NCBI GenBank assembly: GCA_015178975.1
Contig: WHVD01000211.1
Coordinates: forward strand, 59,081-123,080
Length of the DNA stretch: 64,000 nucleotides
Reading direction: 5' to 3'
Source of the DNA: Hysterangium stoloniferum
Lineage: Eukaryota > Basidiomycota > Agaricomycetes > Hysterangiales > Hysterangiaceae
A model generated the notes under the pieces. The model was not told the origin of the DNA. It was given only the letters and a program-made list of their open reading frames with translations, and did not search any database. Shown here piece by piece: positions 2,601-48,492 of the stretch (the first letter of the stretch is position 1; each line of letters opens with the position of its first letter). A program made the translations under genes and the position numbers.

Positions 2601-3268
2601 TTTTCTTTTTGGACTTCTTCAAGGAGTGCTCACCATTGCCATTTTTCCTGTTTGAAAAGGGTGCCTGTTCATTGTCTTCATTGTTCTTTGCTGAGTGGTC
2701 CAAAAGTGTTTCATGACTGATCTCGGCACACCACTCCCAATAGTGGGAATTACATTGCTGAGCTTTCATGTGCATATTTGATGAGCATAGTTGGCTTGCC
2801 ATTGCTATGACAAATATCATCATTAAGGCAAGATGGGAGACCAGAATAAAACTTGTGGCATAGGGCAGAGTTGCCCCAATTAATGAGTGTGGTGAGGGAG
2901 TTAAACTGGACAATATACTCAGTGATCCATTGACTGTCCTTCATCTTAATGTTGGCCAAGGTGGTTTTGGTGTCACCAACAGCATCATGGGAATCAAAAT
3001 TAAGTTTGAGCTCTGTAACAAAAAATGCATAGTTGTTGAGCCAGCTGGATTGGTATGCATCAATATTATTGAGTGCCAGTTCAAACCAGTTCATGGTGGT
3101 ACCCCAAAGAAATGATAGGGTAATATTACCTTGCTTCTGTTGGTGGTGAATTCATCAAGGTGGTCATTTAAGTTCAGATTGCATTGCATAAGGAATGGCT
3201 GCAACTTTGAAGTGTCAGTTCCATGAAAGACATCAGGTTCCTTAACCTTGGCATGCCAGGTGGTCCTC
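2601..3268 (-). pseudogene. Ty3/Gypsy gag fragment
   Basis: Minus-strand reading gives a retrotransposon gag (capsid) core. A frame-shifted KVKEPDVFHG-like start lies near 3230, then FLWGTTMNWFELAL, the NNYAFFVTELKLNF segment and the KMKDSQWITEYIVQFNSL segment at about 2900-3090, then the CHKFYSGLP motif. This order is typical of basidiomycete Gypsy gag. The fragment starts directly at the LTR end (3268/3269), without leader or primer-binding site, and is cut at its other side by the Tc1-like element. It is therefore either the target into which element D inserted or a deleted 5' part of a neighbouring copy. Confidence 0.75.
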
Positions 3269-3861
3269 TGTTAGGGTACATACACGGTGGGGAGATAGAT
3301 AAGAGAGATAGATGTGCTGGAGCCTGTGGGCTCCAACTAGCGTGAGCGGTGTAATTCAAGTAGGAGTTTAGAGTGGAAAATGTATTAGATTACTGGGGGG
3401 AATCTAAGCCGATTTTCTGACTGGATTGTATGTATGTACAACATCTGCCAGACTATATAGACTGTGGAATGAATGACATACCAAATCCAGTAATGATGAA
3501 ATGAAACTAGCAAAACATGAAACAAGAATAGTAAACACCAAATTTGGTGTTAGGAATGGGACAGAATGGAGCGAAGTCCAAATCGGTCATTTGACTAAAA
3601 TGGGAATGGGGTTCTGTTAGAGGGATGATGGGTTTTCTGAGTGGGGTCTGGTGACTGATGCGTGGGATGAGGTCGGACATAGACAGGGACAGAGTCTGGT
3701 GGGTATTCCAGTGACTGATACACAATGTAACGAAGTCGAATGTAGACAAGTCTGATGTACGGAGTCCAGCGGGAATTCCGGTAAACTGACAATTGGTGCA
3801 TATAGGGTGCAGGTGCGTATAAGTTAGTGCCTGGAGTCTGGTGGGAATTCCAGTCATAACA
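3269..3861 (-). repeat. 3' LTR of Gypsy element D
   Basis: On the minus strand it starts TGTTATGACTGG, right after a purine tract (AAAGGGAGGGTAC), and ends ACCCTAACA, i.e. TG...CA, 593 bp. The polypurine tract marks this as a 3' LTR of the minus-strand element. The far side abuts gag sequence rather than unique DNA. No matching 5' LTR remains because D is truncated near 42097. Confidence 0.75.
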
Positions 3862-4073
3862 GTACCCTCCCTTTATGCTGAAGTCCCAAAGAGGCTCCAG
3901 ACCTCGATAAGGTTCTTGTCAGCTACACACATGTCAAAAGTCATGTCAGTTACACATATGTGTCAAAGAGTCATGTGATCTGGAAGGTAAGGTTCAGATG
4001 CGACGAGCCTATATAAAAATTTGAAAAAATGAAATTGCTTCTTCTTTACTTCCCCCATCTTCGCCATTATGGG

Positions 4074-5038
4074 ACCAAAACCAACGCTGTGAAGGCCATT
4101 GCTGACTGCCAGGCCCTCCACAGGCAATCAATACTGGGGGCCTCTCACCACTGCCCAAATTTTGGTGCAGTGGGAGGAACAACACTGACAGTGAGAGGAG
4201 GCAGAAAAAGAAGCCAGGGAGGTCGAGGAGGCCCTGGATAGGAAATACCAGGTAGCTGTGGCTGTGGAGAAAGTGGTGAGAAAAGGAAAAGGGATGAGGA
4301 AGAGGCTGCACGGGTTGCCGTGGAGAAAGCCCGGGCAGCTGTGGAGAGGGCCACGGTTGTTGCAGGCAAAGTAAGTCCCAAAATTTTTAACTTGTCATTT
4401 TTCTTTTGACTGACTTGTCATGTTCAGTGCAAGGTGACAGAGGTGGAGTCAGAGTCCGAGGGGGAGCTGGAGAGCCCCCACAAGGTGAGTCTTGGTCTGT
4501 GGGATCTCCATGGTAACTAACCAAATCAACAGAAGGCAAGGAAGGTGGCACCAGTCTGCCTACCTACATGGAATGATCCGCGGTGTTCTGGTTGCAATGA
4601 CTGGAACACAGAGTGTAATCGGAAGTCTGGGTGGGGACCAGGGTGCTACCAGTGTGTGCACCTCAAGGCGAGGTGCTTGCTCGTCCACGAGCAACCCACA
4701 GGGTCCGGGACATTAGCAGGACAGATGGGTATTCCAGTTTGGAAGAGGTCTTGGGATGGATCGCTGAGGGCATTGAGGCCCAGAACGAGTTGCTCTGGAA
4801 GAGCAACAAGGTGCATGTAGTAATGGCGAACGATCTCCATACACTCTGCTCAGAACATTTCAAGTTCTTAGTGGAGTATGCTGGCTTTGTTTATGAGGAG
4901 CCGGAGGCCAGGAGTTCTGAGAATGCTGGGTCAGATGAGGATGGGGTGCCTGTGGAGATAGCGGAGCTACCCGAGGAAATGGCTGAGGTGGGAAAAAAGA
5001 AGGTGGGGAAAAAAGATAGCCCCATAAATGTAGACTGA
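4074..5038 (+). pseudogene. Antisense accessory gene of Gypsy D: coiled coil plus Zn2Cys6-like cluster
   Basis: It lies on the strand opposite to D's pol, between the chromodomain and the 3' LTR. Introns with canonical borders are visible at 4371-4427 (GTAAGT...CAG) and 4485-4532 (GTGAGT...CAG). Exon 1 (ATG near 4074) encodes a Glu/Ala/Arg-rich helical segment with two TGA codons where arginine fits. Exon 2 (4428-4484) is acidic. Exon 3 encodes CX2CX6CX9CX2CX6C (about 4578-4674), the spacing of fungal Zn(II)2Cys6 binuclear clusters, then a predicted helical and acidic tail ending at 5038. A frameshift near 4700 separates the cluster from the tail. The function is unknown; DNA or RNA binding is an inference from the cysteine pattern. 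Confidence 0.65.
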
Positions 5039-5234: not shown

Positions 5235-5979
5235 TCAGAGAGACGATAGTGGTCCGGGTTTGAGTGGGTAAGCTGTATGAAAGTCAGTAATGAGATCCGT
5301 GGCATTACTGAGTTCCGTGGCCAAAATCCATGAAGTTTCTTCATTGGTGCCCTCGTAACCCACCCACTTGACCAAGTAAAGCAGTTTACAAGTGCGTCGA
5401 CACTTGTCAATTTTCAACTCTAAAATTTGCAAGATTTCAAACTTGGGTTCTCCATCAATAATGACCGGAGGGGGCGGAGATTGCATGTGATCTGGGATAG
5501 TGTTAGCAGCACAAGGTTCTAACATAGAAACATGAAATATCAGGTGTACCACACGTATGCTATCCGGAAGCTATAGGGTCCAAGAGACTGAACCTACTTG
5601 TGCTATAATTTCAAATGGACCTAAATATTTTTCAGCAAGCTTTTTTGATGGATGGGTAGTCCAGAAGAATTGAGCTTTGACAAAAACACAATTGCCAATT
5701 TTGAAGTTGGGTGGTGTCTGTCCACTGAAAGTTGGTATTGCTCTTGGGCGGACTTTATTGCAGTCCAGAGTTCCTTTTGGAGCTCGTGGAGGTCCATGGT
5801 GAACTCTTGAGTGTGAGCAGAGGCAAGATTTCATTCTGGATGTACTGTAATATTTGGATTATATCCTGTATTTGCAAAGAATGGGGAAACACCAGTAGTG
5901 GCCGAGGGTGCATTGTTGTAAGCAAATTCTGCAAGTGGTAACAAGGATTTCCAATTGTCCTGTTGATAATTGCAATATA
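5235..5979 (-). pseudogene. Gypsy D integrase C-terminus and chromodomain
   Basis: Minus-strand reading continues the integrase broken at 7587: [20 protein letters not shown]-type sequence near 5900, the VHLIFHVSMLEP motif, then a chromodomain (about 5250-5450) with YLVKWVGYEGTNEETSW. Chromodomains tether integration complexes to histone marks in chromoviruses. Frameshifts and stops occur near 5560-5600 and 5840. The right edge is the TA insertion site of the Tc1-like element at 5978-5979. Confidence 0.85.
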
Positions 5980-7584
5980 CAGTGGGTCAAAAAACTGCCC
6001 CAATGTTTGTGCATTTTAGAAAGATTGATACTGTGTGAAGGAATGACATCAGCGAAAATTCTGAAAAATTCACATGATATACTAGAACATGTTGGCTATC
6101 TACCAACTTAAGAAATCATGTGAATCCAATCAAAACTCATTGCTTAATAAATCAAACAAAATAATCACTCATTGGGGCAGTTTTTTGACCCTCTATTATT
6201 TTCTCTGATTTTCAATATTACACACCAGTATAAGGTAGGAGTGGATCATATGAATCATCAACATGTCATGTGACCTTATTTGTATCAATTTGGCATGCTG
6301 AACTTTGTTCATTCATCTCCTTGACTCCTTACCACCACTATGAAATCCATCTCTGCAGAAAAGCATTCTTCTGTTATTTTTCTCCTCAATGAGGGGTATT
6401 CCCAGTGTCAAATTCAAGCTAGGACTGGTCTGGGAAAGGGTACTATTGGCAGGATCAGTAGGGAGGTAGAGGGGGATAAGGAAAATCATCCTGGTGGCCA
6501 TTCTTCCAAGCTTTCCCCTTATGATAAACAGTCAATTATCCATTAAATCAGCTCTGGGAAGCTTGACAATGCTGTCCAAGCCACCCAATTTATAAATTCC
6601 ATCATATCTACCTCTGTCACTCCTCAGACTGTTAGGAATGTGTTGAAGGAAGCTGGCTTTAGGTCAGCAACAAAGAAGAAAGTCCCTATGTTCAAGGGGT
6701 CTCATCGTCAGCAACATCTAAAGTTTGCCCAATACCATGAAAATTGGACTATGGAGAACTGGAAGAGGGTGTTGTGGACTGATGAGACAAAAATCAATAG
6801 GATTGGGTCAGATGGGAAGGTATATGTTTGGAAGCAACAAGGGGAACCAGTATCAGACAGGACCACCACACCAACTATCAAACATGGAGGGGGGAATAAC
6901 TTGATGGTTTGGGGGTATATGGGCTGGAATGGGGTGGGGAAGCTGATAGAGGTGCAGAAGAACATGGATACAGTGCAGTATTATGAGATTTTGGAGGAGG
7001 GAGTGGAGGAGAGCATTGAAAGTTTGGAGATGGCTGAGGATAAGTGGTACTTCCAACAGGACAATGATCCAAAACATACCTCAAAAAAGGCAGACCAGTG
7101 GTTATCTGACAATAACATCATTCCCATGAATTGGCCTGCCCAATCCCCTGATCTAAATCCCATTGAACACCTCTGGCAACACCTCAAGGCCAAACTCCAA
7201 CAATATGACATATCACCCAAAGGAGTACATAAATTATGGGACAGGGTGGCAAAGGAGTGGACTGAAATACCACCAGAGACATGTCAGAAGCTAATAGAAA
7301 GCATGCCTAGGAGGATACAGGCAGTTTTAAAGGCAAAGGGGCATACAAAGTATTAGATTGTAAAATAATAGAGGGTCAAAAAACTGCCCCAATGAGTGAT
7401 TATTTTGTTTGATTTATTGAGCAATGAGTTTTGATTGGAATCACATGATTTCTTAAGTTGGTAGATAGCCAACATGTGCTAGTATATCATGTGAATTTTT
7501 CAGAATTTATGCTGATGTCATTCCTTCACACAATATCAATCTTTCTAAAATGCACAAACATTGGGGCAGTTTTTTGACCCACTG
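5980..7584 (+). mobile_element. Tc1-like DNA transposon, complete, one nonsense codon (Tc1-b)
   Basis: The element is 1605 bp with TA at 5978-5979 and 7585-7586. Termini start CAGTGGGTCAAAAAACTGCC. Inverted repeats are about 220 bp (5980-6200 and 7365-7584) and, as in Tc1-a, the terminal motif reappears inverted at the inner end (GGGGCAGTTTTTTGACCCTC near 6175-6194), so each arm can fold on itself. It interrupts D's integrase directly after the TLEQYL motif. It is a different family from Tc1-a in both termini and protein. Confidence 0.94.
6340..7356 (+). pseudogene. Tc1-like DD34E transposase with one in-frame TAA
   Basis: Starting at the ATG at 6340, the frame is open for 338 codons except for a TAA at 6544-6546, one C-to-T change from CAA. 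N-terminal helix-turn-helix residues are about 5-50 (QCQIQARTGLGKGTIGRI). The catalytic signature is WTDETKI, then QQDNDPKHT, then NPIEHLW, with 34 residues between the second Asp and the Glu. No frameshift is seen, so this is a recently silenced copy. It shares its fold and C-terminal SMPRRIQAVLKAKG motif with the Tc1-a protein, but the two differ clearly. Confidence 0.92.
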
Positions 7585-7586
7585 TA

Positions 7587-7816
7587 TGCAGAGATATTGT
7601 TCCAATGTCTGGTTGACGCGTTCGGTTTGTCTGTCGCCTTCCGGGTGATGTCCAGATGTGAAATGTAGTTTCATGTCCAAGGATTTCCTGAGGGATCTAA
7701 AGAAGTGAGACACGAACTCTGATCCTCAATCGGAAGTTACGTGGGATGGAACTCCGTGCTTGGAAAATACATGGATAATAAAAAGTTCCGCTAACTGCAT
7801 GGATGTAATTGTGTCA
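7587..7816 (-). pseudogene. Gypsy D integrase core segment
   Basis: Minus-strand reading gives LFIIHVFSKHGVPSHVTSD, a TGA where arginine is normal, then GSEFVSHFF, and [20 protein letters not shown]. These are the second Asp and third (Glu) regions of a retroviral-type integrase core. The segment ends left at the Tc1-b insertion and right at the Plavaka insertion. Its reading continues at 37924 after removal of the Plavaka element. Confidence 0.88.
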
Positions 7817-9190
7817 CACTGCTGCGGTGAACCCCTTTTGGAGCACTGCAAAATCCTTCCCAAGGAGATGAACTTTAATAAATGAATTTTATTGTGCACT
7901 AAATCTTACTTAAAATAGACATTTTGGGTCATGCAAGAGTGGAACTAAAGGTGACTATTAGTGTGAGGAGTATGCTTTTACCACAGTATCATTGTGGTAA
8001 AACACTTCTTTTATTTCATTTATATTTTACATATTCTATTCATATTTTTCTATCTTTCATATTCTCCGAATATTGCATATTTCATTAGTTCGAAGCATTG
8101 TGTATACTTGTGGGTGCACTCAGCACCAATTAGAACTCAGACACACTTTAACCCAAGAACCACCACTCGTAAGACACAAACTAGGTCTACTACAAGCGGT
8201 GATCAGGGTAACGTGTCAGCTACTACATAAGTAGCAATATCTGAACTACTAAACACTTCTGGCCTCGAACTGTAATAGTCGAGGCCTCCACTCGAACCAT
8301 CGCACTTGTTGACTCCTTCGTCATCTTGTGCTCTTTCTCTTACTTTCTCTTATATTGCACCGAATAGGTCAATATCCTTCCTTTCTACTCATTTCTTCGT
8401 ATATAGAACGGTCAGAACTTCCGCCACTCTTCACAATTAGGTTGAATTTAGCTTGTAAGTAAATATCACATCTAGTGTTAATATTGAGCATGTCAAAATA
8501 TACCCAAAAAATGATCTTTTATCAGCATTTTATGGCGGCATAAATGAGTCATTTTGAGACAATATTAAAGAGAAATAATAGTTGAAAATTAGATAGACTT
8601 TTGCAAGTTAATAAAGATAACATTTTATACTTGTTTTATAGAGTATTTAAATCCTATTCCTAAATGTGTCCTTTAGTGAAGTGTAAAAAATAAATTTAGT
8701 AATCAGATTTTAGAATACATCAAATTGAGCTATTTAGTACATGGATTTAAAATAGTACAAGATGTTTCCCAAATTTAGAATTCTGTGCAATCCAAAATTC
8801 ATTGCACTCTGTGTGTGTCGCTTTGGAGATGATCTTCGCACGAACTCACACAATAAAAGTTGCTTGTTACCAATTGGGCAGCAAGATGTGAGCGTGAATA
8901 TAACAAAAAAATTACTGGCAGGTACCAATTGTGACAAATTGTTATACCACGATATGCAATTAATATTTGTGTGTCACAGGGTGATGAATTGTGTGTCACA
9001 GGGTGATGAATTGCGTGTCACAGGGTGACGAATTGTGTGTCACAGGGTGATGAATTGCGTGTCACAGGGTGACGAATTGCGTGTCACAGGGTGATGAATT
9101 GCATGTCACAGGGTGACAAATTGCATGTCACAGGGTGACAAATTGCATGTCACAGGGTGATGAATTGCGTGTCACAGGGTGACAAATCGT
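7817..9190 (+). repeat. Left inverted arm of the Plavaka element
   Basis: Matches the reverse complement of about 36990-37923 almost throughout, apart from the 474-bp solo LTR insertion at 7962-8435 and a stretch of about 100 bp present only in the right arm near 37195-37295. The arm has no gene. Short open frames here (for example 8762-9028) have mirror images in the right arm only because the DNA is repeated. Confidence 0.9.
7962..8435 (+). repeat. Solo LTR in the left Plavaka arm
   Basis: Starts TGTGAGGAGTATGC and ends CCACTCTTCACA, with a 5-bp duplication ATTAG at 7957-7961 and 8436-8440. The right arm of the Plavaka element carries the uninterrupted target. The 3' end closely resembles the LTR of Gypsy A (57239-57865), so it comes from the same broad LTR family. 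No internal sequence remains. Confidence 0.93.
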
Positions 9191-9195
9191 GTGTC
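8971..9195 (+). repeat. Subterminal minisatellite, GTGTCACAGGGTGATGAATT units
   Basis: About ten head-to-tail copies of a 21-bp unit (GTGTCACAGGGTGAYRAATYG with variants). A mirror-image set with variable spacing lies at about 37015-37185 in the right arm. Such subterminal repeats are commonly transposase binding sites in CACTA-like elements; that role here is inferred. Confidence 0.85.
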
Positions 9196-9203
9196 ATGAG
9201 AGG

Positions 9204-9553
9204 GTGGAGTCAATTGGTACGACTTGGTAAGTTGGCTGTCAGATCTGAATGTTCACAGGCAACATGACAACTTCAGAAGACTTACACAACAAAAGTACCC
9301 AGACACTCTTGCAGGTGGGTCAGTCATAATGCATGCATGCTCTTAGGAGTGACTTTAAATCTCCCAATTTTGTTGTTGTGGGTCCTGGTCCACAGATCAA
9401 GATGTCGGTGTGTTGAACTGTTACTTCTCAGTACTCAATCCTTTGTAAGTGCAGTTCCATCCCTTCCACTTATCTGTCCATAGCATCTAACTTATAATGG
9501 TATCAGAGTTGAAGAGATATGAGAATGGCTGAATATTATGTGCAGCTGCGAAA
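9204..9553 (+). other. Noncoding stretch ending in a Copia-like primer-binding motif
   Basis: The only recognisable signal is TGGTATCAGAG at 9498-9508, the classic initiator-Met tRNA primer-binding core found just after the 5' LTR of Ty1/Copia elements. The preceding 300 bp may therefore be an LTR remnant, but no TG...CA pair or duplication can be fixed. No gene is seen. Confidence 0.35.
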
Positions 9554-9904
9554 ATGGCGGGTATTGGCTTGCGCACAGGAACACATCAACCAGAACTTGT
9601 GTGTGAATTGACCACACTATTTTCCTTCGACACGAATGAACTGGCCATCAAGATGGAAGTGCAATTGCTTGTGTCAGCGGCGATAGAGGGGTTATACCGA
9701 GCAGTAGGTGCAACCTTGAGGGAGTTTGTTGGTCAATGTGAAGCTGTTCTGGAGGTAGGAAATAGAGATGATGTCCCAGTATTAAAGCTTGGTACTTTAC
9801 GAGTGACATCTACAGACATGGATGAGGAATCAAATCCTGAGGCCACACCTCGTATCTTTTTTATTCCCCTGGATGTGGGACACCAAACCAAGTCGCTCCA
9901 ATAA
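9554..9904 (+). CDS. Hypothetical protein, 116 aa, unrecognised
   Basis: Open frame beginning MAGIGLRTGTHQPELVCELT shortly after the Copia-like primer site. Its last 20 codons (RIFFIPLDVGHQ and neighbours) fall in a 380-bp tandem repeat, and the same tail closes the open frames at 10059-10286 and 17416-17649. No known domain was recognised. It may be a spliced or truncated gag-like remnant, or a chance frame. Confidence 0.25.
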   Translation: MAGIGLRTGTHQPELVCELTTLFSFDTNELAIKMEVQLLVSAAIEGLYRAVGATLREFVGQCEAVLEVGNRDDVPVLKLGTLRVTSTDMDEESNPEATPRIFFIPLDVGHQTKSLQ

Positions 9905-10396
9905 CATTTGTCTCTTACCATGAAGCCCATTTTGGAACGTGGAACGTGAGTCCCATTTTGTCCATTTTGCCTACAAATTCCTATGCTAACGATGACTTTA
10001 ATTCTTTCTGTAGTTACTCCCCACCTCAACACTAGTTGGCCTTTCTTCCCGTTCATGCATGACTCCATCCATCTCATTTTCACCCCTGGTGCACAATCAC
10101 AGTAAGCTCGCATTTGTTTTATTCATTTGTTTTATTAATCTCTATCACAGCTGTTCACTGACGTCATATGGGCCCGGCACTCCCCCGCTTAGCTTACAGG
10201 GACCATATGACATCATGTTGAGTGGTACACTTCGTATCTTTTTTATTTCCCTGGATGTGGGACACCAAACCAAGTCACTCCAATAACATTCGTCTCTTAC
10301 TGTGAAGGTCAGTTTGGAGCGTGAGTCCCATTTTGTCCATTTTGCCTACGAATTCCTATGCTAACTATGACTTTAATTCTTTCTGTAGTTACTCCC
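9851..10396 (+). repeat. About 380-bp tandem repeat with a conserved hairpin, left part
   Basis: One full unit begins at 9851 and a second at 10233. The second is interrupted at 10396 by Gypsy G1 and resumes at 17383. Each unit holds a near-palindrome (10161-10221 here) with arms TGACRTCATATGG and CCATATGAYRTCA around about 25 bp. The repeats read through as short open frames but show no recognisable protein. Confidence 0.75.
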
Positions 10397-10818
10397 TGTC
10401 ACAACCGTCACATGTCACATATTGTCACAAACATTCAAAGGTAACTTTCGACAACTCTTCGACCTATCGAATTCAACTCGATGAAACTGAACATTATTCG
10501 ACACCATCGAATCTCTTTCGACATGTCTCATTTCAATGTCATGAATGATTTCATTATTAGTTCATAACATAGTCATAACGATACGAAGAAAAGCATAAAA
10601 GGGCTACGAAAGGAGTGAGGGAAGTCAGTTGAAATATCTGTATATTAGTGATATTAGTAATCTATCTTGTCGTAACTTCTTTGACAAATACTTCCATGAG
10701 TTCTCGCGACTGGTATTAGCCTCTTACTTCATTGACAGGGTGAATATATACTTCATTGAACGAGGCTTTCGAGTTCGATTAATAGAAGATTTTATTGTAG
10801 AATAATCGATTCGTGACA
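10397..10818 (+). repeat. 5' LTR of Gypsy G1
   Basis: 422 bp, TGTCAC...GTGACA. An 8-bp gap near 10785-10800 relative to the 3' LTR explains most of the length difference. It is followed directly by the leader with the ATG at 10843. Confidence 0.95.
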
Positions 10819-10842: not shown

Positions 10843-13800
10843 ATGAAGCCCAGGATGCAATCCGAGACTACCAAAGCATCAAGTTCCACAGCACTTCAAT
10901 CCGTGGCTCCCACTCCTTTGCTGAGAGTTATTTGGCCATCGCAAATTCCAGTTTCTCCTTTAACCAAAACTAGAAGAACTGCGATGTCTTCAATCCGAGA
11001 ACCCGAAGAAGTTCGAGAAGAGCCAATCTTGCCAATTCAAGAATCCGAATCCCCTTTAACACCTTTGCCCAAATCTCCACGTCCCGAACCTGTTACATCT
11101 GAGGATGAAACAATGTTTTGACATTTCGGAGATGCGCTTGGAAAAGTATTGAAGGACCAGATGTCTTTGAAGGAGCCCGAAATCACAGTGAATAAGCCCG
11201 AAGAGTTTTCTGGAGAAGAACCTTCGATGTTGAAGAAATTTTATCACTCAATGTGAAATGGTCTTTCGATCTCGACCAAAATTGTTTGAATCCGATCAAT
11301 CGAAAATTACACTGGTAACTTCGTATTTCCGGAAAATGGCTCAAGAGTGGTGGCAACCTTTTTTATTAAATCCCCCAATTCCTCCGCCATCTTTTCTTGT
11401 GGACTATCTCGATTTTCTAGATGAATTATATGCTCCATTTGGAGAAATTGATGCAGAAGGAGAAGCCGAAGAAAAACTCAATAATCTTCAAATGAAAGCT
11501 CATCATCATGTTGCGAAGTATTCAATTCAATTTACAAGTCTCACTGCTCAAACTCAATATGATGAATTCGCTTTATGACAATGATTTTATAAAGGACTTC
11601 CGAATCGAATTAAGGACGAAATAGTGAAGCTTCAAGTTCAGCCTGAAAGTTTTGCCGAACTATGAACAGCAGCCCTTCGACTCAATTCTTACTATTGGAT
11701 GCGAGAGAATGAACAACAATGCGAAACAGAATCAAGTTCGACTCCATGAAGATTTGAAAGAAGACAATCAACGACGTCTATGACTTATCCTTTGACATCA
11801 CGAACACTTTCGACTTCAAACACTTTCGACTTCAAAACCGACAATTTCGACTTCAAGAACATTTAGGCCTTCGACTCAAGCGAAACCATCTTCGACAATT
11901 TTAGGACCTGATGGACGATTACTTCCTGCCGAACGAGACAGAAGATTTAAAGAAGGGTTATATATATTATGTGGAGAGAAAGGTCATTCAGTGAGGGATT
12001 GCCCAAAAAGAAAAACTCGTCAAATTGCAAAAGGACGAATCATTGAAGTCCAAGATTCGACAACTCAATCCGACCAGTCGAATCAAGCATCGAATGTTAA
12101 ATCGGAAAATTGAAAAGGGATACTCTTCAGGTGTGTGAAGAGTATCGAAGAAGACTCGATCATGCTGAAAAAGATTCCTGTATAATATTATGAGTGGTAA
12201 CAATTTCTGATTCTTTAATTATTGAACTTAAATCGAAAAAAATTCCGAAAATGAAAGCATTAATTGATTCAGGATCTAGTCATCTTTTTATGGACAAAAT
12301 ATTTGCACGACAAAATAATCTATCTTTTGACCAATTGAAAAATCCATTATCATTAAAATTAATTGACGGATCGACTCCGACATCAGGACAAATTACGTAT
12401 ACGACTACATTACAAGTTTACTTTCCATCCAGGAAAATTCAAGAATTACAATTCTTTCTAACCAATCTCAACTCGTCTTGTCAAGTGGTATTAGGACTCA
12501 ACTGGCTGAAGCAATACAATCCTGCGATTGACTGGTGATCTGGCCGTATATTGTTTGAACCTACTTCGACACCTTTGACAAATACGAATCCGATTCAACC
12601 ATCAATCAAAACGTTATCAGAAGAGAAGCATGCTTCGACCTCGGCGAGTCATTCATTGACATCTGAGAAAATCCATGAAGAATTGAAATCCGAGACTGTC
12701 AATCCGAATATCAACATAGTCAATCAGAAGACTTTCTTACAAGCTGCGAAAGCAAAAGACTCTCAAACCTTTGTGGTCTTTATCTGCGATGAATCTTTCA
12801 AGACTTGTAAGGCCTCCGGTGCAAAAACTACGACTTCAACTTCATTCGACATACCGAATGTTCCGACCAAATATTCCAACTTCTCGGGCATTTTCGACAA
12901 AAAAGAAGCTGAAGCTTTACCTCAACATCGAAGTTATGATCACACTATCCCATTAGAAGAAGGAACTATTCCACCTATGGGCCCGATCTATTCATTATCC
13001 GAGACAGAACCTCAAGTGCTATGAGAATATCTCCAAGAGAACCTTTTGAAGAAATTTATTCGATCGTCGCAATCTCCCACCAGTGCACCAATTTTATTCG
13101 TTAAGAAGAAAGACGGAAGCCTACGACATTGCGTCGACTATTGAGGACTTAATAAAATTACATGGAAAAACCGATATCCACTTCCTTTAATCCCTGATCT
13201 TTTGGATCAACTTCGAACGGTGAAATATTTTACAAAAATCGATCTCCGAGGTGCCTATAATTTAGTTAGGATTGCTCCAGGAGATGAGTGGAAAACAGCC
13301 TTTTGGACTCGATATGGATCTTTCGAATATTTGGTTATGCCTTTTGGATTATGCAATGCTCCGGCAACCTTTCAACAATTAATGAATGAAATATTTTCAG
13401 ATTTACTTGATATTTGGGTAATTATCTATCTCGACGACATACTAATATTTTCCAACAATCTCGAAGAACATTTATGACAAGTTTGAGAAGTTCTTCGACA
13501 GCTTCGACAAAATCGATTATTTGCAAAACCCGAAAAATGTGAATTTCACAAAACCAGTATCGAGTTTCTAGGATATGTTATTTCCCCTCAAGGTGTATAT
13601 ATGGACGAAGAAAAAATCAAAGTTATTCAAGACTGGCCCGAACCACAAAAAGTCCGTGACATTCAATCATTTTTAGGATTTGCGAATTTCTATCGAAGAT
13701 TTATTCCAAGTTATTCTGAAATCATTTTACCATTGACTTGACTTACTCGAAAAAAGGTTCAATGGCATTTCGATGAAAAATGTCGACATGCATTTAACTA

Positions 13801-15914
13801 TTTGAAAAAAGAATTTACTACAGCTCCAATTTTAATTCATTGGAACAGACTATAAACCTATACTCGAAACTGACGCTTCTGATCATGCTATAGCTTCAAT
13901 ATTTTCTATGCAGACTCCCAATAACGAGATTCATCCAGTTGCTTATAATTCAAGAACCCTTTCGACTTCCGAAATCAATTACAACACTTACGATAAAGAA
14001 TTATTGGCAATATTCGAATCTTTCAAAATTTGGTGACATTATTTCGAAGGAACAAGAACCAATTGAAGTTTTAACGGATCACAAGAATCTCGAATATTTT
14101 GTGACAACTCGAATTTTGTCTTGATGACAAGCTTGATGGGCAGAATATTTATTGACCTTTAATTTGATTATTTGATTTCAACTGGGAAAACTAAATTTGA
14201 AAACAGATGTTCTTTCCAGAAGAAATGACGTTTATCCGAATGAACCCGACTACTCAAAAAAGAATCCAACTAATCTTCGACTGGTATTTACAAATGAGCA
14301 AATTCAAGCTTCCTTACGTGCAACATATTATCTTCCAATAGTGTGAAAAGCTACTCTCATTATGGATACGAATCAACTATTGAAAGATATATTCAAAGCT
14401 CAAAAAGAAGATCAATTTACTCTCGACAAAATTCGACAGATTTCTGACAGTACCGAAGAAGATTGGCAAAAGAACGAACAAGACTTTTTATGTTTCCGAA
14501 ACAGAATTTACATTCCCGATTATCAAACTCTATCACTTCAAGTTCTTCAATCACGACACGATCATATTACTGCAGGCCATTTCGGTCAAACAAAAATGTA
14601 TCGAACAATATATCGAGATTTCTTTTGGCCACGACTCCGACAAGATATTCAAAAATTTATTTGATCATGCGTAAGTGTACAAAATCGAAAACTCCACGAC
14701 ATCGACCCATTGGATTACTTAAGCAACTTCTGATTCCTCTTTGACCATGGCATTCAATCTCGATGGACTTTATCGAACAATTACCAACCTCGAATGGTTA
14801 CGACTCAATACTCATAATCGTCGATCGACTTTTGAAACAAGCAATATTCATTCCAACTTATACTACGATCAACGCTCCCGAACTCGCTCGGCTTTTCGTA
14901 TTACATGTCTTTTCAAAACATGGAGTCCCAAGTCATGTAACTTCTGATCGAGGATCCGAATTTGTATCACATTTCTTTTGATCTCTCGGAACAGCACTCG
15001 ACATGAAATTACATTTCACTTTGGGATATCATCCTGAAGGTGATGGACAAACCAAACGAGTCAATCAAACCCTCGAACAATATTTACGAATATATTCCAA
15101 TTATCAACAAGACAATTGGGCTGAATTACTTCCTTTAGCCGAATTCGCTTACAACAATGCACCTTCCAAAACAACTGGTGAAATGCCATTTTTTGCTAAT
15201 AAAGGTTATCATCCATTGTTAGAAATTCACCCTGAAAAAGATCTAGCTTCCGCTCTAGCTCGCGATTATACGACAGATCTCGAAGCTCTACATAAACATC
15301 TCAAATCAAATATCCAGAAAGTGCAAATACATTATCAAAAATATTCCGACATACATCGAAAAGAGTCTTTTGACTTTCTGATCCATTCTCAAGTCTTTTG
15401 ACTTTCTGATCCATTCTCAAGTCTTTTGACTTTCCGATCCATTCTCAAGTCTTTTGACTTTCCGATCCATTCTCAAGTCTTCGTACGATCCAACTTCATT
15501 TGAACAACTTGACCATCGAAAAGATTATCAGAAAAATTATTAGGCCCATTCGAAATCATTGCTCGACCCAGGATCTCATTCATACACATTAAAACTCCCC
15601 AATCATCTCAAAGGAATTCATCCCATCTTTCACATCTCAATGTTAGAACCGTTTATCCCAATACTTTCCCAAATTGAAAACAACCTCCTCCTCCACCAAT
15701 TTATGTTGAAGAAGAACCTGAATATGAAATTCGAGAAATTTTGGATTCAAAATTTGATAAAAGATATAAAGATTTGTTACAATATTTAGTTGCTTGGTTA
15801 GGTTATGAAGGAACAGATGAAAAAACTTCATGGTTAGGATCTCAAGATCTCGAACATGCTTTTGACCTTATCGAAGAATTTCATCAAAAATATCCAAATC
15901 TTCCACGACATTAA
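10843..15914 (+). pseudogene. Gag-pol polyprotein of Gypsy G1, many CGA-to-TGA stops
   Basis: Gag begins at the ATG at 10843 (a frame break lies near 11250). A zinc knuckle near 11960-11995 keeps CGEKGHSVRDC but has lost its first Cys. Protease: ALIDSGSS (near 12263). RT: DYxGLN at 13136-13150 and [11 protein letters not shown] near 13420. RNase H: ETDASD near 13870. Integrase: a RHDHITAGHFG zinc-binding motif, SMDFIEQLPTSNGYDSILIIV and [13 protein letters not shown]. Chromodomain: YLVAWLGYEGTDEKTSW near 15780-15832, stop at 15914. At least 15 in-frame TGA codons sit where arginine is expected, including the Arg of DYRGLN (13142-13144). Few true frameshifts are seen, so decay was mostly by point change. 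Confidence 0.93.
15364..15475 (+). repeat. 28-bp unit repeated four times in integrase of G1
   Basis: Unit GTCTTTTGACTTTCTGATCC plus ATTCTCAA, four head-to-tail copies with one C/T variant. Three extra units add 84 bp, a multiple of three, so the frame before and after is the same although the inner copies are read in other frames. Confidence 0.9.
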
Positions 15915-16021: not shown

Positions 16022-16867
16022 CTATAAATCCTCAATTCCTTCCTCTCTCAGTTCCGCCATCTTATCAAACCATGCCCCCCTAAATCTCCCACTATTAACA
16101 CTGATATCAGTCTCCTGACTAAAATTGCCACTTTCGACCAATTTCTTCGACAAAACTGAAAAATCCTTTCTGAACACTTTGACCTCACCAATTACATCTT
16201 CCATAGTTTCCTCTAATTTCAACATTCTTTTGCCAATCGATTTTATTTCCTTTTCCAACTGGTTATCCAACCAATGTTCTGACCTTCTCGACTGTCTAGA
16301 AAAATTCGACATTCTTGACATAATGTTGCAACGGACATTCTTCCTTTGGCCAAGTTTACGAATCCCAGCACTACCATCTTTGCTTTCATTTTCCAATTCT
16401 TCGATCACGTTTCGACTCTTTTTTCGGTTTCGATGCAGTTTTCCAGCTGGCCTATTCATGGTCCAGTAACAAGCCCAATGCAATCAATTGCACCGATCAC
16501 AATTCGATGACGCATTAGTTTTCTTACACACGAAATTTGTGTTGAAACACATTGTGCAACTGGAAAAAACAAATTAGCAAAATTTGACAAAATTTGACAA
16601 AATTTGACAAAACTGAAAAATTACGAATTTTCCGATTTTGCCTCAAATTCCCATTGCATCCCAATTCCCTTACGAGTCGCCTTATTGAACGGTTCTTCGC
16701 AGTCTTCTATCCGCTTTTTGGGAATTTCTTCTAAAAATTAACTAATTAACTAATTTTAAAGAAATCCCAGAAATCGACTTACCAACCGCATCAACAACCA
16801 CATCTCTATCCTTGAAACCCAAATACTCAGATCCTGATTCGAGTTGATCGACTTCTATATCAGACAT
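16022..16867 (-). CDS. Antisense spliced accessory gene of Gypsy G1: Zn2Cys6-like cluster plus coiled coil
   Basis: Lies opposite to pol, between chromodomain and 3' LTR. ATG at 16867. Exons 16867-16783, 16730-16625 and 16559-16022; introns of 52 bp (GTAAGT...TAG) and 65 bp (GTAATT...CCAG, with a GCTAAT branch-like motif). The joined length is 729 nt, 243 codons, with no frame conflict. Exon 3 begins CTMCFNTNFVC and continues to CX2CX6CX8CX2CX6C, the fungal Zn(II)2Cys6 spacing, followed by a basic stretch and a Leu/Lys/Glu helical region (IKSIGKRMLKLEETMEDV). One TGA falls inside the cluster (C-N-stop-L-H) where Arg fits. A related copy is at 47657-48492. Function unknown; nucleic-acid binding is inferred. 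Confidence 0.75.
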
Positions 16868-16947
16868 TGATTGATGAACACGAAAATAGACAATGAAAAA
16901 ACTTTTCAAACTCTGACCTCGTGGGCTCGGTCACAAAGGGAGGATAC

Positions 16948-17377
16948 TGTCACAACCGTCACATGTCACATATTGTCACAAACATTCAAAGGTAACTTTC
17001 GACAACTCTTCGACCTATTGAATTCAACTCAATGAAACTGAACATTATTTGACACCATCGAATCTCTTTCGACATGTCTCATTTCGACATCATGAATGAT
17101 TTCATTATAAGTTCATAACATAGTCATAATGATATGAAGAAAAGCATAAAAGGGCTATGAAAGGAGCGAGGGAAGTCAGTCGAAATATCTGTATATTAGT
17201 GATATTAGTAATCCATCTTGTCATAACTTCTTCAACAAATACTTCTGTGAGTTCTTGCGACTGGTATTAGCCTCTTACTTCATCGACAGGGCGAATATAT
17301 ACTTCGTCGAACGAGGCTTTCGAGTTCGATTAATAGAATATTATTCGACTTTATTGAAGAATAATCGATTCGTGACA
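16948..17377 (+). repeat. 3' LTR of Gypsy G1
   Basis: 430 bp, same termini as the 5' LTR, preceded by the purine tract AAAGGGAGGATAC and followed by the CTCCC duplication. CpG sites that are TG or CA here are often still CG in the 5' LTR and vice versa. Confidence 0.95.
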
Positions 17378-17382
17378 CTCCC

Positions 17383-17671
17383 TGCCTCAACACTAATGGG
17401 CCTTCCCGTTCATGCATGACTGCATTCACCTCATTTTCATGCCTGGTGGAAAATCATGGTAAGCTCACTTTGACTTTATGCATTCTTTTATTAATCTCTA
17501 TCACAGCTGTTCACCCTGCAGTGACATCATATGGGCCCGGTGCTCCCCTGCTTAGTTTACAGGGACCATATGATGTCATGTTGAGTGGTACACCTCGTAT
17601 CTTTTTTATTCCCCTGGATGTGGGACACCAAACCAAGTCACTCCAATAACATTCATCTCTTACTGTGATTT
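17383..17671 (+). repeat. About 380-bp tandem repeat, right part
   Basis: Completes the second unit interrupted by G1 and begins a third (from 17595) that stops near 17671. The hairpin recurs at 17520-17583 with arms TGACATCATATGG and CCATATGATGTCA, here fully complementary. Confidence 0.75.
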
Positions 17672-22042: not shown

Positions 22043-22190
22043 AGAGAGTATTTGCAACTAATAATTATCAGCTCCGGAATGATCTGGACATCAACTCCGC
22101 CTATTATTTATTGTCGATCAAAATATTTCCCAACATGTGACCTAAAATGTGACAGCTGAGTCTCCAAACCGGGCTCTTTACCCTAACAGA

Positions 22191-22830
22191 CGTGTTCTCA
22201 AGGCCATCACCTTGTGTTCCAGTGGTCCCCAGTGAGTTCAACCTGTCCCCTCTGTTTTCTATGCTAACTGACTCTTTTCTGAGGCTGTCATCACGTTTTC
22301 CAGGTTTCTCAGTGCATCCAAACCATATCCCTTCTTCCTAATCCAACACACGTGTTCTCAAGGCCATCACTTCGTGTTCCAGTGGTCCCCAGTAAGTTCA
22401 ACCCATCCTCTCTGTTTTCTATGCTAACTGACTCTTTTCTGAGGCTGTCATCACATTTTCCAGGTTTCTCAATGTGTCCAAACCATATCCCTTCTTCCTA
22501 ATCTAACACACGTGTTCTCAAGGCCATCACTTCGTGTTCCAGTGGTCCCCAGTAAGTTCAGCCCATCCTCTCTGTTTTCTATGCTAACTGACTCTTTTCT
22601 GAGGCTGTCATCACGTTTTCCAGGTTTCTCAGTGCGTCCAAACCATATCCCTTCTTCCTAATCTAACACACATGTTCTCAAGGCCATCACTTCGTGTTCC
22701 AGTGGTCCCCAGTAAGTTCAACCCATCCTCTCTGTTTTCTATGCTAACTGACTCTTTTCTGAGGCTGTCATCACGTTTTCCAGGTTTCTCAGTGCATCCA
22801 AACCATATCCCCTCTCCCTAATCTAACACA
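22191..22830 (+). repeat. 160-bp tandem repeat, four units
   Basis: Units begin at 22191, 22351, 22511 and 22671 (exactly 160 bp each) at CGTGTTCTCAAGGCCATCAC. Variation between units is a few bases. The array ends about 30 bp before the start codon of the Myb-like gene, so it occupies the promoter or subterminal position. Confidence 0.95.
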
Positions 22831-22860
22831 CGTCTGCAAGGTCCACATATTCTGAGTGCC

Positions 22861-24227
22861 ATGTCCTACCAATTCAGGACCGTGTCACCTTCTGACTTCT
22901 ATCACACTTCCCTTCTCTCGCCCTCACCTCCTCTCCCATCATCACATGTGATGCCCCTCACACCCACACTCCCATCTTCAAAACGTGCAAGATACTTATC
23001 TGAAGCATCCAACATGCAGGTCCCACACCCCCATAGTCCCATGAACGTGGATACCCCCATATGCCCTCTTCCCCCCAACTCCTCTTCCATGGTCAACGCC
23101 CCCCAACTGGTCACTCCGGTCAGGTCATATCCACGCCATCGCCAGGTCACTTCAGTCACATTATCTCTACGAGTGTTTGAAGGTGAGTCAGACACTGGCA
23201 TTTTCACTGATGGCAGCAAGGATGCCTCTTCACCCACCAAGAAGAGGACACAACGACGCAAGCCCAGGGAGGAGTTCACGACCAATGACCTCAAAGCACT
23301 TTTGATTGCAGTTCTAAATGTCAACCCCTGGATGTGCGCGTGTGGGGAGTCAAAGGACAAGTGGCAGGAGGTGTCAGTTTTGGTCAAACAGGCTAATGCG
23401 TGTGAGGGACGTTCAGCTGATACACTGAAAAACAAGGTGTACAGTCTCTTGAAAGCTGTTGAGGTGCGTTTTTTTTTTCTTTATGTATTTTATTAACAAC
23501 TCTATTAGACTCGAGGTGTTAGCACACAGAATTCTCTCGCTTGTGATGCAGGTCTTTTCACTGCCATCTCAGGTCGTTTGGATTCTGTGGCAGCTCTCAA
23601 AAAACTGGTGGAGGAAACAAGGGAATCTGATCGCGAGAAAGTGAAACTGGTATGTTGTTCTTGATATTATATCTTTATTCTACTCACTTTTTTTAGGAAG
23701 CCGAAGCTCAGAAGACTGCTGGCTTGAACTTGCACAATGCAATGATGAAGGGCCATTCACGCCGATCCCTGAAGAAGTGCACTCAGGACGATCTTTTTTC
23801 AGCCACAGGGCATTCTGACATAGCACAGGAAGACTCCTCTGGCTCTGGCATATCAATGTTGACGAGCCAACACACTTCGAAGAGCAAAAAACGCCGTGAA
23901 GACACACTCGAGTCAATTATCGGCCTCATTCGTACTTCAGTGGATGCGAGGGAGGTTATGATCAGTGAGCAATGCAAGCAGACAGAAGCATTCATTCTGG
24001 AGGCGCGTGCAGCATGAGAGGAGGCGCGTGCAGCATGAGAGGAGGCTCATGCAGCACGAGAGGAGGCGCGTGCAGCACGAGAGGAGGCGCATGCAGCACG
24101 AGAGGAGGCGTGTGCAGCACGAGAGGAGGTGCGTGCAGCACGAGAGGAGGCACATGCAGCACGACTTGCCAGTGATGAGATTGCGAAGTCACTCATTGAT
24201 GTGTTGAGACAGGGGTTGTTGGGATGA
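22861..24227 (+). CDS. Harbinger Myb/SANT-like DNA-binding protein, two TGA stops near the end
   Basis: Partner protein of Harbinger transposases, needed for DNA binding and nuclear import in known systems. Exons 22861-23463, 23509-23649 and 23697-24227; introns GTGCGT...TTAG and GTATGT...TTAG. The joined length is 1275 nt, 425 codons. The N-terminal half is Pro/Ser-rich. The Myb/SANT-like fold covers residues about 125-200 (KPREEFTTNDLKALLIAVLN to LKNKVYSLLKAVE). The C-terminus has KSKKRRE, then eight copies of a seven-residue unit EEARAAR (about 23998-24165), then an amphipathic end. TGA at 24016-24018 and 24037-24039 replaces the CGA found in later units. Confidence 0.82.
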
Positions 24228-28082: not shown

Positions 28083-28929
28083 TAATTTACTAGAGTTCCA
28101 TGATTCCGAACTGCCTTGCAAAAGGTTTCCCCTTGCTTCTGATAGATTCCTGATGTATACTTCAAATGCAACTTGATCATATCTCGTATTGGCCAGTAGT
28201 TGTCATACTTATTGACAACTGGATAATGCTTTTTTGCCTTCCAATACAGGCATGAGGATCATGAGTGGACGATGATAGATTATCTAACACTTACCAAGGC
28301 ACAAATTGCATTAATGTCAGCAGATTTCTGTTTCTTGTAACTTTTCGTGGTGTCCAGTGTATCATTTGCTTTATTCTTCACAAATCGCTATGGAGGGCTA
28401 AGAGACAGGAAGTAAATTTACAATGCATGCTGAAACTCACAGTGACATTCTCTAGTAGATCAGGACTCCAGCCACACAGCTCACTCTCAACACTGTACCC
28501 ACCAGAGTTAGGACATCCAGGTTCACCCTGTGGTTTGGGAATCTTGTTATTGTTGCATTTTCCAAGGATTCCAAGGGTTCCACCGCCTTCATTGTCTCAA
28601 TCATCATTTTCTATCACATCATCCAATTCTTTGTCTTGTGAATCTATATCTGAATGCATATCCAATTCAATTGATGTCAGCATTCCATCATTGTGGCCCC
28701 ATTCTTCAGCAAAATCGATGCGAGGTGTAATTATTGGTCGGTGACCTGAAGCCTTCAATGGTTGGAACTCAATCTCGGAGGTGATGAGTGGTAGATGTCG
28801 AGCGATTGTGTGCTGCATGAATGGTGGGATTGGCCTGAATGTCAATATATCAGCAACACTTAAAGGGACAAGAGTGTTTTGTTCCATTTCTGGTTCATCT
28901 TGAGTTAGTTGCATACACAATGAGTACAA
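28083..28929 (-). pseudogene. Unfamiliar acidic multi-exon gene inside the Plavaka element (gene PB)
   Basis: ATG near 28929 (MYSLCMQLTQDEPEMEQNTL). Exon 1 ends at a GTGAGT site near 28442, after KIPKPQGEPG.PNSGGYS and LCGWSPDLLENVT. It is followed by exons with DTTKSYKKQKSADINAI (about 28290-28365) and KYDNYWPIRDMIKLHLKYTS (about 28130-28190). I recall the order Pro-Gln-Gly..NSGGY, TKSY.KQ, then a Y.D.WP.RD.hK.+LKYTS block from repeated hypothetical proteins of Agaricomycetes; no function is known to me. One TGA near 28600 sits in a D-rich stretch. A 101-bp tandem duplication overlaps the start codon region. Confidence 0.5.
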
Positions 28930-29066
28930 TTAACACGCTGCACCAATATTGAGTAATATGGAACAAGGACAAGAGTGTTTTGTTCCATTTCTGATTCATC
29001 TTGAGTTAGTTGCATACACGATGAGTACAATTAACATGCTGCACCAATATTGAGTAATATGGAACA
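28866..29066 (+). repeat. 101-bp tandem duplication at the start of gene PB
   Basis: GGACAAGAGTGTTTTGTTCC begins at about 28866 and again at about 28967. The two copies, through ATATTGAGTAATATGGAACAA, differ at only a few positions, which are CG/CA or TG changes. Confidence 0.85.
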
Positions 29067-29148
29067 ATAACCATATAACGGTTTAAAGCTGATTTAAAGG
29101 CGAAGGCGAAGACCTAGAGAACATATCAGAAACCCAAGATACTCATCG

Positions 29149-43200: not shown

Positions 43201-43365
43201 CATGAAACAAAACTTATCTATGTATTTAGTACTTAAACGTCTTTAGGTATTGTATAATATAGTGAACGTTTATTCGCTGAAATACTTAAACATCTTTAGG
43301 TTATGGGCCCCGGCTCTTTATATTGATAGCAAACAATTAACAAGCCATTCTAATTAATCGCTGAA

Positions 43366-47450: not shown

Positions 47451-47656
47451 ATGGTGGTTAGGCTCTCAAGATCTCAAACATGCTTTTGACCTTATCGAAG
47501 AATTTCATCAAAAATATCCAAATCTTCCACGACATTAAAATTTCATTCAATTATTTTTCGACACTTACTTCAACATCTATTTGACAAAATCGAAAAAAAA
47601 AAAAAAAAAAAAAAATCAAAACGCAAAAAACATCAATTAATCAAAATTTTAAGTAT

Positions 47657-48492
47657 CTACAAATCTTCAATTCCTTCCTCTCTCAATTCCTCCATCTTAT
47701 CAAACCACGCCCTCCTAAACCTTCCACTATTCACACTAATATCAGTCTCTTCACTAAAATCGCCACTTTTGACCAATTTCTTCGACAAAACCGAAAAATC
47801 TTTTCTGAACACTTTCACCTCACCAATTAAATCTTCCACAGTCTCTTCTAATTTTGACATCCTTTCGCCAATCGATTTTATTTCTTTCTCCAAGTCCTTA
47901 TCCGACCGATGTTCCAACCTTCTCGACCATCTAGAAAAATTCGACATTCTCGATATGACGTTGCGACGATTATTTTTCCTTTGCCCAAGCTTTCGAATTT
48001 CTGGACTACCATTTTCATTTTCGTCTTCCGATTCTTCGATCACATTTCGACTCTTCTTTCCATTTCGACGTGGTTTTCCGGCTGGCCTATTTACGGTCCA
48101 ATAACAAGCCCGATGCAATCAATTGCACCGATCGCAATTCGACGACACGTTACTTTTCTTACACACGAAATTCGTGTTGAAACACATTGTGCAACTGGAA
48201 AAAACAAATTAGCAAAATTCAACAAAAGTTCGACAAAACCAAAAAATTAAGCATTGTCCGATTTTGCCTCAAATTCCCATTGCATCCCAATTCCTTTACG
48301 AGTCACCTTATTGTACGGTTCTTTGCAATCTTCAATCTGTTTCTTGGGAATTTCTTCTAAAAAATAACTAATTAACTAATTTTAAAGAAATCCCAGAAAC
48401 GACTTACCAACCACATCAACAATCTCATTCCTATCCTCAAAACCCAAAAACTCGGATCCTGATTCGAGTTGATTGACTTTTATATCAGACAT
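47657..48492 (-). pseudogene. Second copy of the antisense Zn2Cys6-like accessory gene
   Basis: ATG at 48492 (MSDI, as in the G1 copy). The first intron is kept (GTAAGT...TTTTAG). At the second intron the 5' site GT is TT in this copy, while the 3' site TTTTTTCCAG is kept. Exon 3 has the same cysteines (CFNTNFVCKKSNVSSNCDRC, then a TGA, then LHRACYW) and an open 153-codon tail with no length change. By eye about four residues in five match the G1 copy. Conserved stretches are GEVKVFRKDFSVLSKKLV and ETDISVNSGRFR. The TGA in the cluster is at the same codon as in G1. Confidence 0.75.

Follow-up and report, generated by a model that had tools for sequence, protein, structure and literature searches.

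An antisense, two-intron gene with a zinc-cluster-like module recurs in chromovirus families of Hysterangium stoloniferum

Several Ty3/Gypsy chromovirus families of the truffle-like agaricomycete Hysterangium stoloniferum (genome of 111 Mb in 554 contigs) appear to carry an antisense gene that is spliced twice, and on balance I consider it probable that the product is a regulator acting at the edge of the LTR. What the sequence shows is a gene recognizable by its antisense position, two short introns with their splice signals, constraint on the exons, purifying selection, recurrence in several families and a TATA box. The analysis started from a window of 64,000 nucleotides (the whole stretch of DNA that was analysed), which holds a chromovirus insertion, hereafter called element A, two copies (A and B) of the antisense gene of one family, G1, and one copy of the antisense gene of a sister family, G5 (Table 1). 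An earlier note on this DNA had proposed that the G1 gene is an accessory gene of a chromovirus, antisense and spliced, a proposal that the copies across the genome, the selection acting on them, the indel pattern and the sister families all support.

Table 1. Positions in the window of element A, of the G1 and G5 antisense genes and of associated features.
Feature	Position	Strand	Details
5' LTR of element A	10397..10818	+	422 nt, TGTCAC...GTGACA
gag piece, element A	11234..11578	+	PF03732
Aspartic protease piece, element A	12194..12538	+	PF08284
Reverse transcriptase piece, element A	13145..13477	+	PF00078
Integrase zinc-binding piece, element A	14347..14664	+	PF17921
Chromodomain and pol end, element A	15681..15914	+	PF00385 match 15681-15911, 33.4 bits vs cut-off 25.1
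3' LTR of element A	16948..17377	+	430 nt
G1 antisense exon 1	16783..16867	-	85 nt, ATG at 16867
G1 intron 1	16731..16782	-	52 nt, GTAAGT..TTTTTAG, phase 1
G1 antisense exon 2	16625..16730	-	106 nt
G1 intron 2	16560..16624	-	65 nt, GTAATT..TTTCCAG, phase 2
G1 antisense exon 3	16022..16559	-	538 nt, terminal stop 16024-16022
Premature in-frame stop, copy A	16484..16486	-	between Cys5 and Cys6
LTR/polypurine-tract edge upstream of G1 ATG	16925..17000		candidate cis-element (inference); five TGTGAC on gene strand
Copy B of G1 antisense gene	47657..48492	-	exon lengths 85/106/538 kept
G5 antisense gene, decayed copy	4069..5038	+	boundaries by eye vs intact L092
G5 exons	4069-4370, 4428-4484, 4533-5038	+	
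G5 introns	4371-4427, 4485-4532	+	
TATA box of G5 antisense gene	4010..4019	+	59 nt before ATG
Six-cysteine cluster of G5 gene	4584..4676	+	CX2CX6CX9CX2CX6C, exon 3
Chromodomain of G5 element, pol end	5238..5570	-	element's sense strand; PF00385, 26.7 bits vs cut-off 25.1

Element A has the features of a Ty3/Gypsy chromovirus: pol ends in a chromodomain, and reverse transcriptase (RT), integrase and protease pieces are present. Judged by its ends it is a complete insertion, flanked by a 5-bp target duplication, CTCCC (10392-10396 and 17378-17382), with LTRs that are 94.1% identical over ungapped positions (25 mismatches, of which 23 are transitions). It is decayed, its gag, protease, RT, integrase and chromodomain lying in separate open pieces. 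Its flanks are themselves repeated (9845-10021 with 10227-10396, and 10016-10305 with 17377-17668), which indicates that element A inserted in an older repeat. The window also contains tandem arrays at 8923-9230 (22-bp units), 22183-22962 (160-bp) and 28866-29067 (101-bp), as well as a 269-aa open frame on the minus strand (51353-52162) that has, by eye, the look of a host kinase-type gene.

The G1 antisense gene lies on the minus strand, between the end of pol (15914) and the 3' LTR (16948) of element A. This is the location of the antisense additional open reading frames termed aORF-3R (opposite to gag-pol, between pol and the 3' LTR), and it is shared by the antisense genes of a sister locus, L081, and of the G5 element of the window. 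The three-exon model opposite gag-pol was reproduced as the earlier note had drawn it, position included, and so were the exon sum of 729 nt and the GT..AG ends of both introns in copy A. The note had overlooked, however, the in-frame stop listed in Table 1: the frame is not open across the 729 nt in the window, and the "153-codon last exon" is merely the part of exon 3 that follows this premature stop. Without splicing there is no such frame: intron 1 carries in-frame stops in copies A and B alike, and the length of intron 2 in most copies, 56 nt, is not divisible by three. Copy B had been described as keeping the last exon without change in length; all three exon lengths are indeed kept, but this copy is broken too, with a stop at the same codon as in copy A and with the GT donor of intron 2 lost. 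Because a stop is present at that codon in 20 of the 62 distinct G1 copies read across the genome, its occurrence in both window copies says little. Copy B has its pol side cut off and adjoins a Ty1/copia-like pol (43354-47538, with long open frames by eye) whose last frame runs straight into the chromodomain end of copy B; by eye, the join is a nested or recombined junction.

The genome was searched with the 153-aa piece; the best 150 of 171 first-look candidates were scored, and the matches listed correspond to 117 places once those within 1.5 kb of each other are merged. The 62 distinct copies that were read include copies A and B, and some of them are incomplete. The earlier note had counted a lack of open copies outside this locus among the signs against the gene; such copies exist: the full 729-nt frame is free of stops in 11 of the 62, eight of which also have all four splice dinucleotides. 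Thirty of the first 60 G1 loci had been picked by protein similarity, and the counts were redone on a DNA-ranked set of 29 copies (query excluded, copy B included). In this set, exon lengths are exact in 18 copies and all four splice dinucleotides are present in 20; among the 18 with exact exon lengths, seven are without premature stop and five are intact including the splice sites. Exon 3 is open in the frame of the antisense gene in 24 of the 62 copies, and in 8 of the 29 DNA-ranked ones, compared with none of the 62 and none of the 29 for each of the other five frames. Open frames on the sense strand across from exon 3 were rejected as candidates on the same counts (0/62 and 0/29). At the first intron, the donor is GT in 53 of 55 readable copies and the acceptor AG in 52 of 55; at the second, the donor is GT in 40 of 60 readable copies (18 have AT) and the acceptor is AG in all 60. 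Judged by these sequences, the G1 antisense gene is real, and its window copy is broken.

The gene also travels with its element. Among the matches listed, 52 of the 75 G1-type RTs are followed by the antisense gene at most 8 kb downstream on the opposite strand; the spacing is 2.43-2.55 kb in 30 of these pairs. Same-strand pairs number three. The gene is thus found in most copies of the family, the other 23 RTs being without it or their gene not being among the matches listed. A search across the genome with the exon 2-3 junction pattern found no intronless G1 retrocopy, while the exon 1-2 junction pattern gave 12 places, all with three mismatches and unrelated-looking; this outcome argues neither for nor against splicing.

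Exons and introns of G1 differ sharply in their tolerance of length changes. In the 29 DNA-ranked copies, distinct indels amount to 13.7 per 100 nt in introns versus 2.1 in exons; in a separate count, deletion alleles amount to 30.8 per 100 nt versus 3.6. Distinct events are reported because the query intron 2 exceeds that of most copies by about 9 nt and therefore gives every DNA-ranked copy (29/29) an intron indel; in the other copies, intron 1 is mostly 51-54 nt and intron 2 mostly 55-58 nt long. Substitutions do not single out the introns: columns whose polymorphism is shared between copies are fewer in intron 1 (8 of 52) than in the exons (35-42%), and in intron 2 (26 of 61) they are about as frequent as in the exons. 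The exons are set apart solely by the indel and codon patterns.

The codon patterns were examined by separating changes common to at least three G1 copies, which mostly arose during element activity, from singletons, which are mostly post-insertion. The ratio of nonsynonymous to synonymous changes is 175:153 for the former versus 157:46 for the latter (odds ratio 0.34, Fisher p 2.5e-8), and third positions account for 185 of 328 common changes versus 70 of 203 singletons. Transversions were also counted apart since decay is rich in transitions, as the differences between the LTRs of element A show. Among transversions alone, 47 of 73 common changes fall at third positions versus 42 of 107 singletons (p 0.0014). 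The nonsynonymous to synonymous ratio of transversions is 26:17 for changes found in at least six copies versus 85:22 for singletons (p 0.023); at the threshold of three copies it is 55:18, close to that of singletons, so that this signal is weak. The median pairwise dN/dS (Nei-Gojobori, 45 pairs from ten of the 11 full-frame copies, pairs picked for open frames) is 0.16, far from the value near 1 that the earlier note had named as speaking against the gene. The G1 protein is under purifying selection.

A search of the genome for RTs, in which the best 150 of 2929 candidates were scored, gave two groups among the matches listed: 75 with at least 77% identity, which belong to G1, and 75 with 66-71% identity, which belong to the sister families. 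Many of the sister matches lie in open frames of 1000-1300 aa. Thirteen of them begin less than 3 kb from the start of a contig (e.g. G000:C52:245, C134:1000, C178:667, C521:958), probably because near-identical copies break the assembly, in which case copy numbers are lower bounds. Within 8 kb downstream of the 75 sister RTs, no G1 antisense gene was present among the matches listed. The sister locus L081 nonetheless carries an antisense gene in the same slot, with a first exon of 303 nt, a second exon of 81 nt and a third exon encoding CX2CX6CX10CX2CX6C. When the genome was searched with L081 exon 3 (best 150 of 648 candidates scored), at least 29 of the 75 sister RT matches were paired with an antisense gene at 2.4-2.7 kb, and among the matches listed one pair was on the same strand. 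On its LTR-side flank, L081 contains a transposase-like open frame (2911-3504) that resembles, by eye, a DDE_3 open frame at 1230-1844 of the window.

Eleven sister loci were read, L081 and ten more. Six of them accommodate a two-intron model, with both introns in phase 0 and the six cysteines in an open frame; lengths match closely in L081, L082, L086 and L089, while L085 and L090 need another second acceptor. No full two-intron model was obtained for the other five (L083, L084, L087, L088 and L091). Comparison of the G2 gene with three G3 genes over the full frame (3 pairs) gives dN/dS values of 0.12-0.18. The window copy of the G5 gene has an early stop in exon 1 and a frameshift in exon 3. 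L092, an intact G5 relative elsewhere in the genome, has exons of 327, 57 and 501 nt, two introns of 49 nt, both in phase 0, a product of 294 aa and a TATA box 60 nt before the ATG. The G5 cluster is the sole match in the window of a scan for the open six-cysteine pattern, which gave none in each of 20 base shuffles. The genome search for the G5 gene yielded 1534 candidates, the best 150 of which were scored. By eye, the NCBI model BU17DRAFT_86143 has the same exon 1-exon 2 join as the G5 model and departs from it after exon 2; BU17DRAFT_80596 does not follow the G5 exon model. Near the G5 gene, a transposase-like open frame (6547-7356, plus strand, DDE_3 kind by eye) lies inside 226-bp inverted repeats (97%) at 5977-7587, and seems to be a nested DNA transposon within the integrase of the G5 chromovirus (pieces at 7507-7725 and 5755-6015, minus strand, by eye).

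All 12 genes examined (the 11 sister loci and the G5 gene of the window) have a TATA box 56-63 nt ahead of the ATG. With a stricter pattern it is found in 11 of 12 loci (L081-L092) versus 173 of 6000 shuffles, these genes being kin and not independent cases. In the sister families it falls outside the LTR, in the stretch that separates the LTR edge from the gene. The 150 nt upstream of the G1 gene contain no TATA box. The LTR edge upstream of the G1 gene is characterized by TGTGAC. Of 30 loci examined, both window copies included, the edge could be located in 29, and 28 of these have the hexamer three to seven times; in 2000 shuffles of this stretch of the window, no hexamer was repeated as often. 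At the LTR edge of the sister families, an inverted repeat is found whose core is similar to TGTGAC; five of the 11 loci have the exact sequence GTTGCGACacgGTCGTAAC and the others come near it, while L092 has no match to this type of inverted repeat. Since the edge sequence starts both LTRs of element A, the TGTGAC and inverted-repeat motifs are candidate targets of the antisense protein, but they could just as well mark the ends of the element, serving integrase or the RNA ends.

Is the product a zinc-cluster protein? The Zn(2)-Cys(6) pattern of PF00172 is CX2CX6CX5-12CX2CX6-8C, and the cysteine spacing of G1 (intact copies), G2/G3 and G5 conforms to it, with a middle spacing of 8, 10 and 9, respectively. 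The cluster CX2CX6CX8CX2CX6C that the earlier note had read in the window is found in intact copies elsewhere, whereas the window copy is interrupted by the stop before Cys6. Its likeness to a fungal zinc cluster holds for the spacing but not for the PF00172 profile, whose search scores stayed below the cut-off in every family tested. For G1, two intact proteins and the cluster piece alone gave no Zn_clus match at E<=10; the sister proteins missed the gathering score of 21 bits, the best of seven reaching 18.5 bits (E 0.0023) and the other six giving no match; the G5 protein scored 8-10 bits. Moreover, the G1 cluster is without basic residues between Cys2 and Cys3, where they are usual in Gal4-type clusters.

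Fungal zinc-cluster regulators are ordered as a cysteine cluster, a basic stretch and a coiled coil. The G1 protein displays, all within exon 3, the order Cys6 cluster, basic stretch, acidic stretch, long helix; in the sister proteins, the part from exon 1 is highly charged, that from exon 2 is short and acidic, and the Cys6 cluster sits near the head of exon 3. The helical tail proposed in the earlier note agrees with an AlphaFold2 model of the G1 153-aa piece made from the lone sequence (mean pLDDT 75, pTM 0.39), which contains a single helix at residues 38-117, the ten-residue blocks from 41 to 120 having pLDDT values of 79-98. The Cys6 module is a putative zinc- and DNA-binding module. Comparison with solved structures gave best matches of E 0.05 or worse, those of G1 being mostly to coiled coils. 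Among the Pfam matches of the antisense proteins there was no bZIP family and, at E<=10, no TRP28 domain (PF04195); a CREB coiled coil was matched very weakly (E 0.05) outside Pfam. A search of 5.8 billion proteins gave 236 candidates for G1 and 86 for G2, with no relative among them, and G5 had at least two, both hypothetical proteins of the same species (best 7998 candidates scored); IMG/VR contained no relatives of the G1 piece.

The genes of G2, G3 and G5 likely descend from one gene, as far as their sequences tell. Common descent with G1 is not proven, since the profile comparison between G1 and the sisters was not significant (E 0.08 over half the cluster) and intron phases differ (1/2 in G1 versus 0/0 in the sisters). 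Two independent captures of cysteine-cluster genes into the same slot would account for these differences, as well as for the different layout of G1 and its lack of a TATA box, yet I regard such a double event as rather unlikely: the slot and strand are shared, both genes have two introns with the cluster opening exon 3, all six cysteines can be aligned when a single protein from each of G1, G2, G3 and G5 is compared, and the RTs of the two groups are 66-71% identical.

How might such a gene work? An antisense mRNA would be produced from an integrated copy by the gene's own promoter, which in the sister families would include the TATA box between LTR edge and gene. The host spliceosome would remove the two introns in the nucleus, and the resulting product of 240-300 aa would combine the zinc-cluster-like module with the long helix. 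After dimerization through its coiled coil, the protein would enter the nucleus and bind DNA via the Cys6 module, its sites being the repeated motifs of the LTR edge, i.e., the TGTGAC cluster in G1 and the GTTGCGACacgGTCGTAAC-type inverted repeat in the sisters. Because these sites are located both at the two LTR starts and just upstream of the antisense gene, the dimer could tune sense transcription and its own. The best guess as to the sign of this regulation, by analogy with HBZ, is feedback repression. Retrotransposition would leave the introns in place because reverse transcription copies the sense, genomic RNA, a strand on which they read backwards and are no introns.

The selection and the gene structure would be explained equally well by a selected antisense protein that does not regulate the LTR but acts on RNA or on the particle (in packaging or nuclear export, or as a chaperone) or counters a silencing factor of the host, the Cys6 cluster being an RNA- or protein-binding knuckle. 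This is possible, though I think it doubtful. The cluster is only distantly Zn_clus-like (18.5 bits at best) and lacks the usual basic residues in G1, and the long, highly charged exon 1 of the sisters suits a scaffold as well as a regulator; on the other hand, the succession of cysteine spacing, basic stretch and coiled coil is that of fungal zinc-cluster regulators, and the repeated motifs at the LTR edge argue for a target there. Likewise, the antisense proteins of HTLV are mostly nuclear and LTR-acting, according to the text available from PMC10186651.

It is very improbable that the antisense RNA is what matters (as dsRNA, through small RNA or by interference with sense transcription), with the frame as a passenger. 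The available part of PMC7264820 treats non-coding antisense transcripts of LTR elements, and that of PMC10648671 reports lncRNAs from transposon-derived antisense sequence in a fungal phytopathogen, but the third-position and synonymous bias, dN/dS values of about 0.1-0.3, exon lengths that are fixed while intron lengths vary, and conserved cysteines are marks of a protein. A chance open frame or an artefact of decaying repeats, which the broken state of both window copies might have suggested, is refuted by the intact copies elsewhere, by the absence of openings in the other five frames and by the recurrence of the pattern across families, and has next to no probability.

The regulator reading can be extended to a whole group of fungal chromoviruses. 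Each would encode its own zinc-cluster regulator in an antisense gene with two introns, which in most families is driven by a TATA box, as an independently evolved counterpart of HBZ, the introns marking propagation by sense RNA; I find this broader proposition evenly poised. In the present genome, the extent of the copies is given by 171 + 648 + 1534 first-look candidate places, overlaps included, with the best 150 of each search scored.

Among known proteins, the Gal4-type Zn(2)-Cys(6) regulators come close in layout and share the six-cysteine spacing, the nearby basic stretch and the coiled coil behind it. The Hysterangium proteins differ from them in being borne by retrotransposons, in staying below the Pfam cut-off in every tested family and, for G1, in lacking basic residues between Cys2 and Cys3. 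As to position, the available text of PMC7264820 and PMC11963269 describes antisense ORFs of plant LTR retrotransposons (Grande gene23, RIRE2, Retand TRP28) that occupy the interval from pol to the 3' LTR and resemble the G1 and sister genes in slot, in strand and in being kept in most copies. They are suggested there to be regulators, with possible DNA binding in the case of TRP28 and an own promoter reported for gene23, while the function of such accessory genes is described as unknown. The plant systems differ by their hosts and, for Retand, by a non-chromovirus lineage; PF04195 was not found in the Hysterangium proteins, which have instead a Cys6 cluster and a helical tail, and the text seen on the plant genes mentions no two-intron structure. 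A fungal case is Boty of Botrytis cinerea and Sclerotinia, an element whose gene brtn occupies the same antisense slot between pol and the 3' LTR (PMC7264820, available part) and is named as an additional ORF of BcGypsy1 in that of PMC8365987.

The earlier note knew of no described spliced antisense gene with a zinc cluster. Its novelty has to be narrowed, since antisense genes in this slot are known from plants and from Boty brtn (PMC7264820), and spliced antisense regulators from HTLV (PMC10186651), as far as the accessible text of these sources goes. Among the open-access papers listed by the literature searches, none deals, as judged by title and opening of abstract, with a zinc-cluster gene of an LTR element that is both antisense and spliced, and what appears to be new is a spliced antisense zinc-cluster-like gene in LTR retrotransposons, widespread in one genome. 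Introns inside an element that replicates through RNA are notable, and fit a tolerance of spliceosomal introns on the strand that is not genomic RNA. With divergent and partly intact families, a conserved module, a core promoter and candidate targets at the LTR edge, self-regulation becomes directly testable. A parallel is found in human retroviruses. HBZ of HTLV-1 and APH-2/3/4 are antisense regulators; they have spliced forms, are expressed from the 3' end and reduce expression driven by the LTR (PMC10186651, available text). These primate retroviruses have the promoter inside the 3' LTR, whereas the Hysterangium TATA box lies between LTR edge and gene, and HBZ has a bZIP where the Hysterangium proteins have a Cys6 cluster; the likeness would be one of convergence, and no sequence kinship is claimed. 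That selection has kept such a gene working suggests that these chromoviruses may supply a regulator of their own, as is the case in certain human retroviruses.
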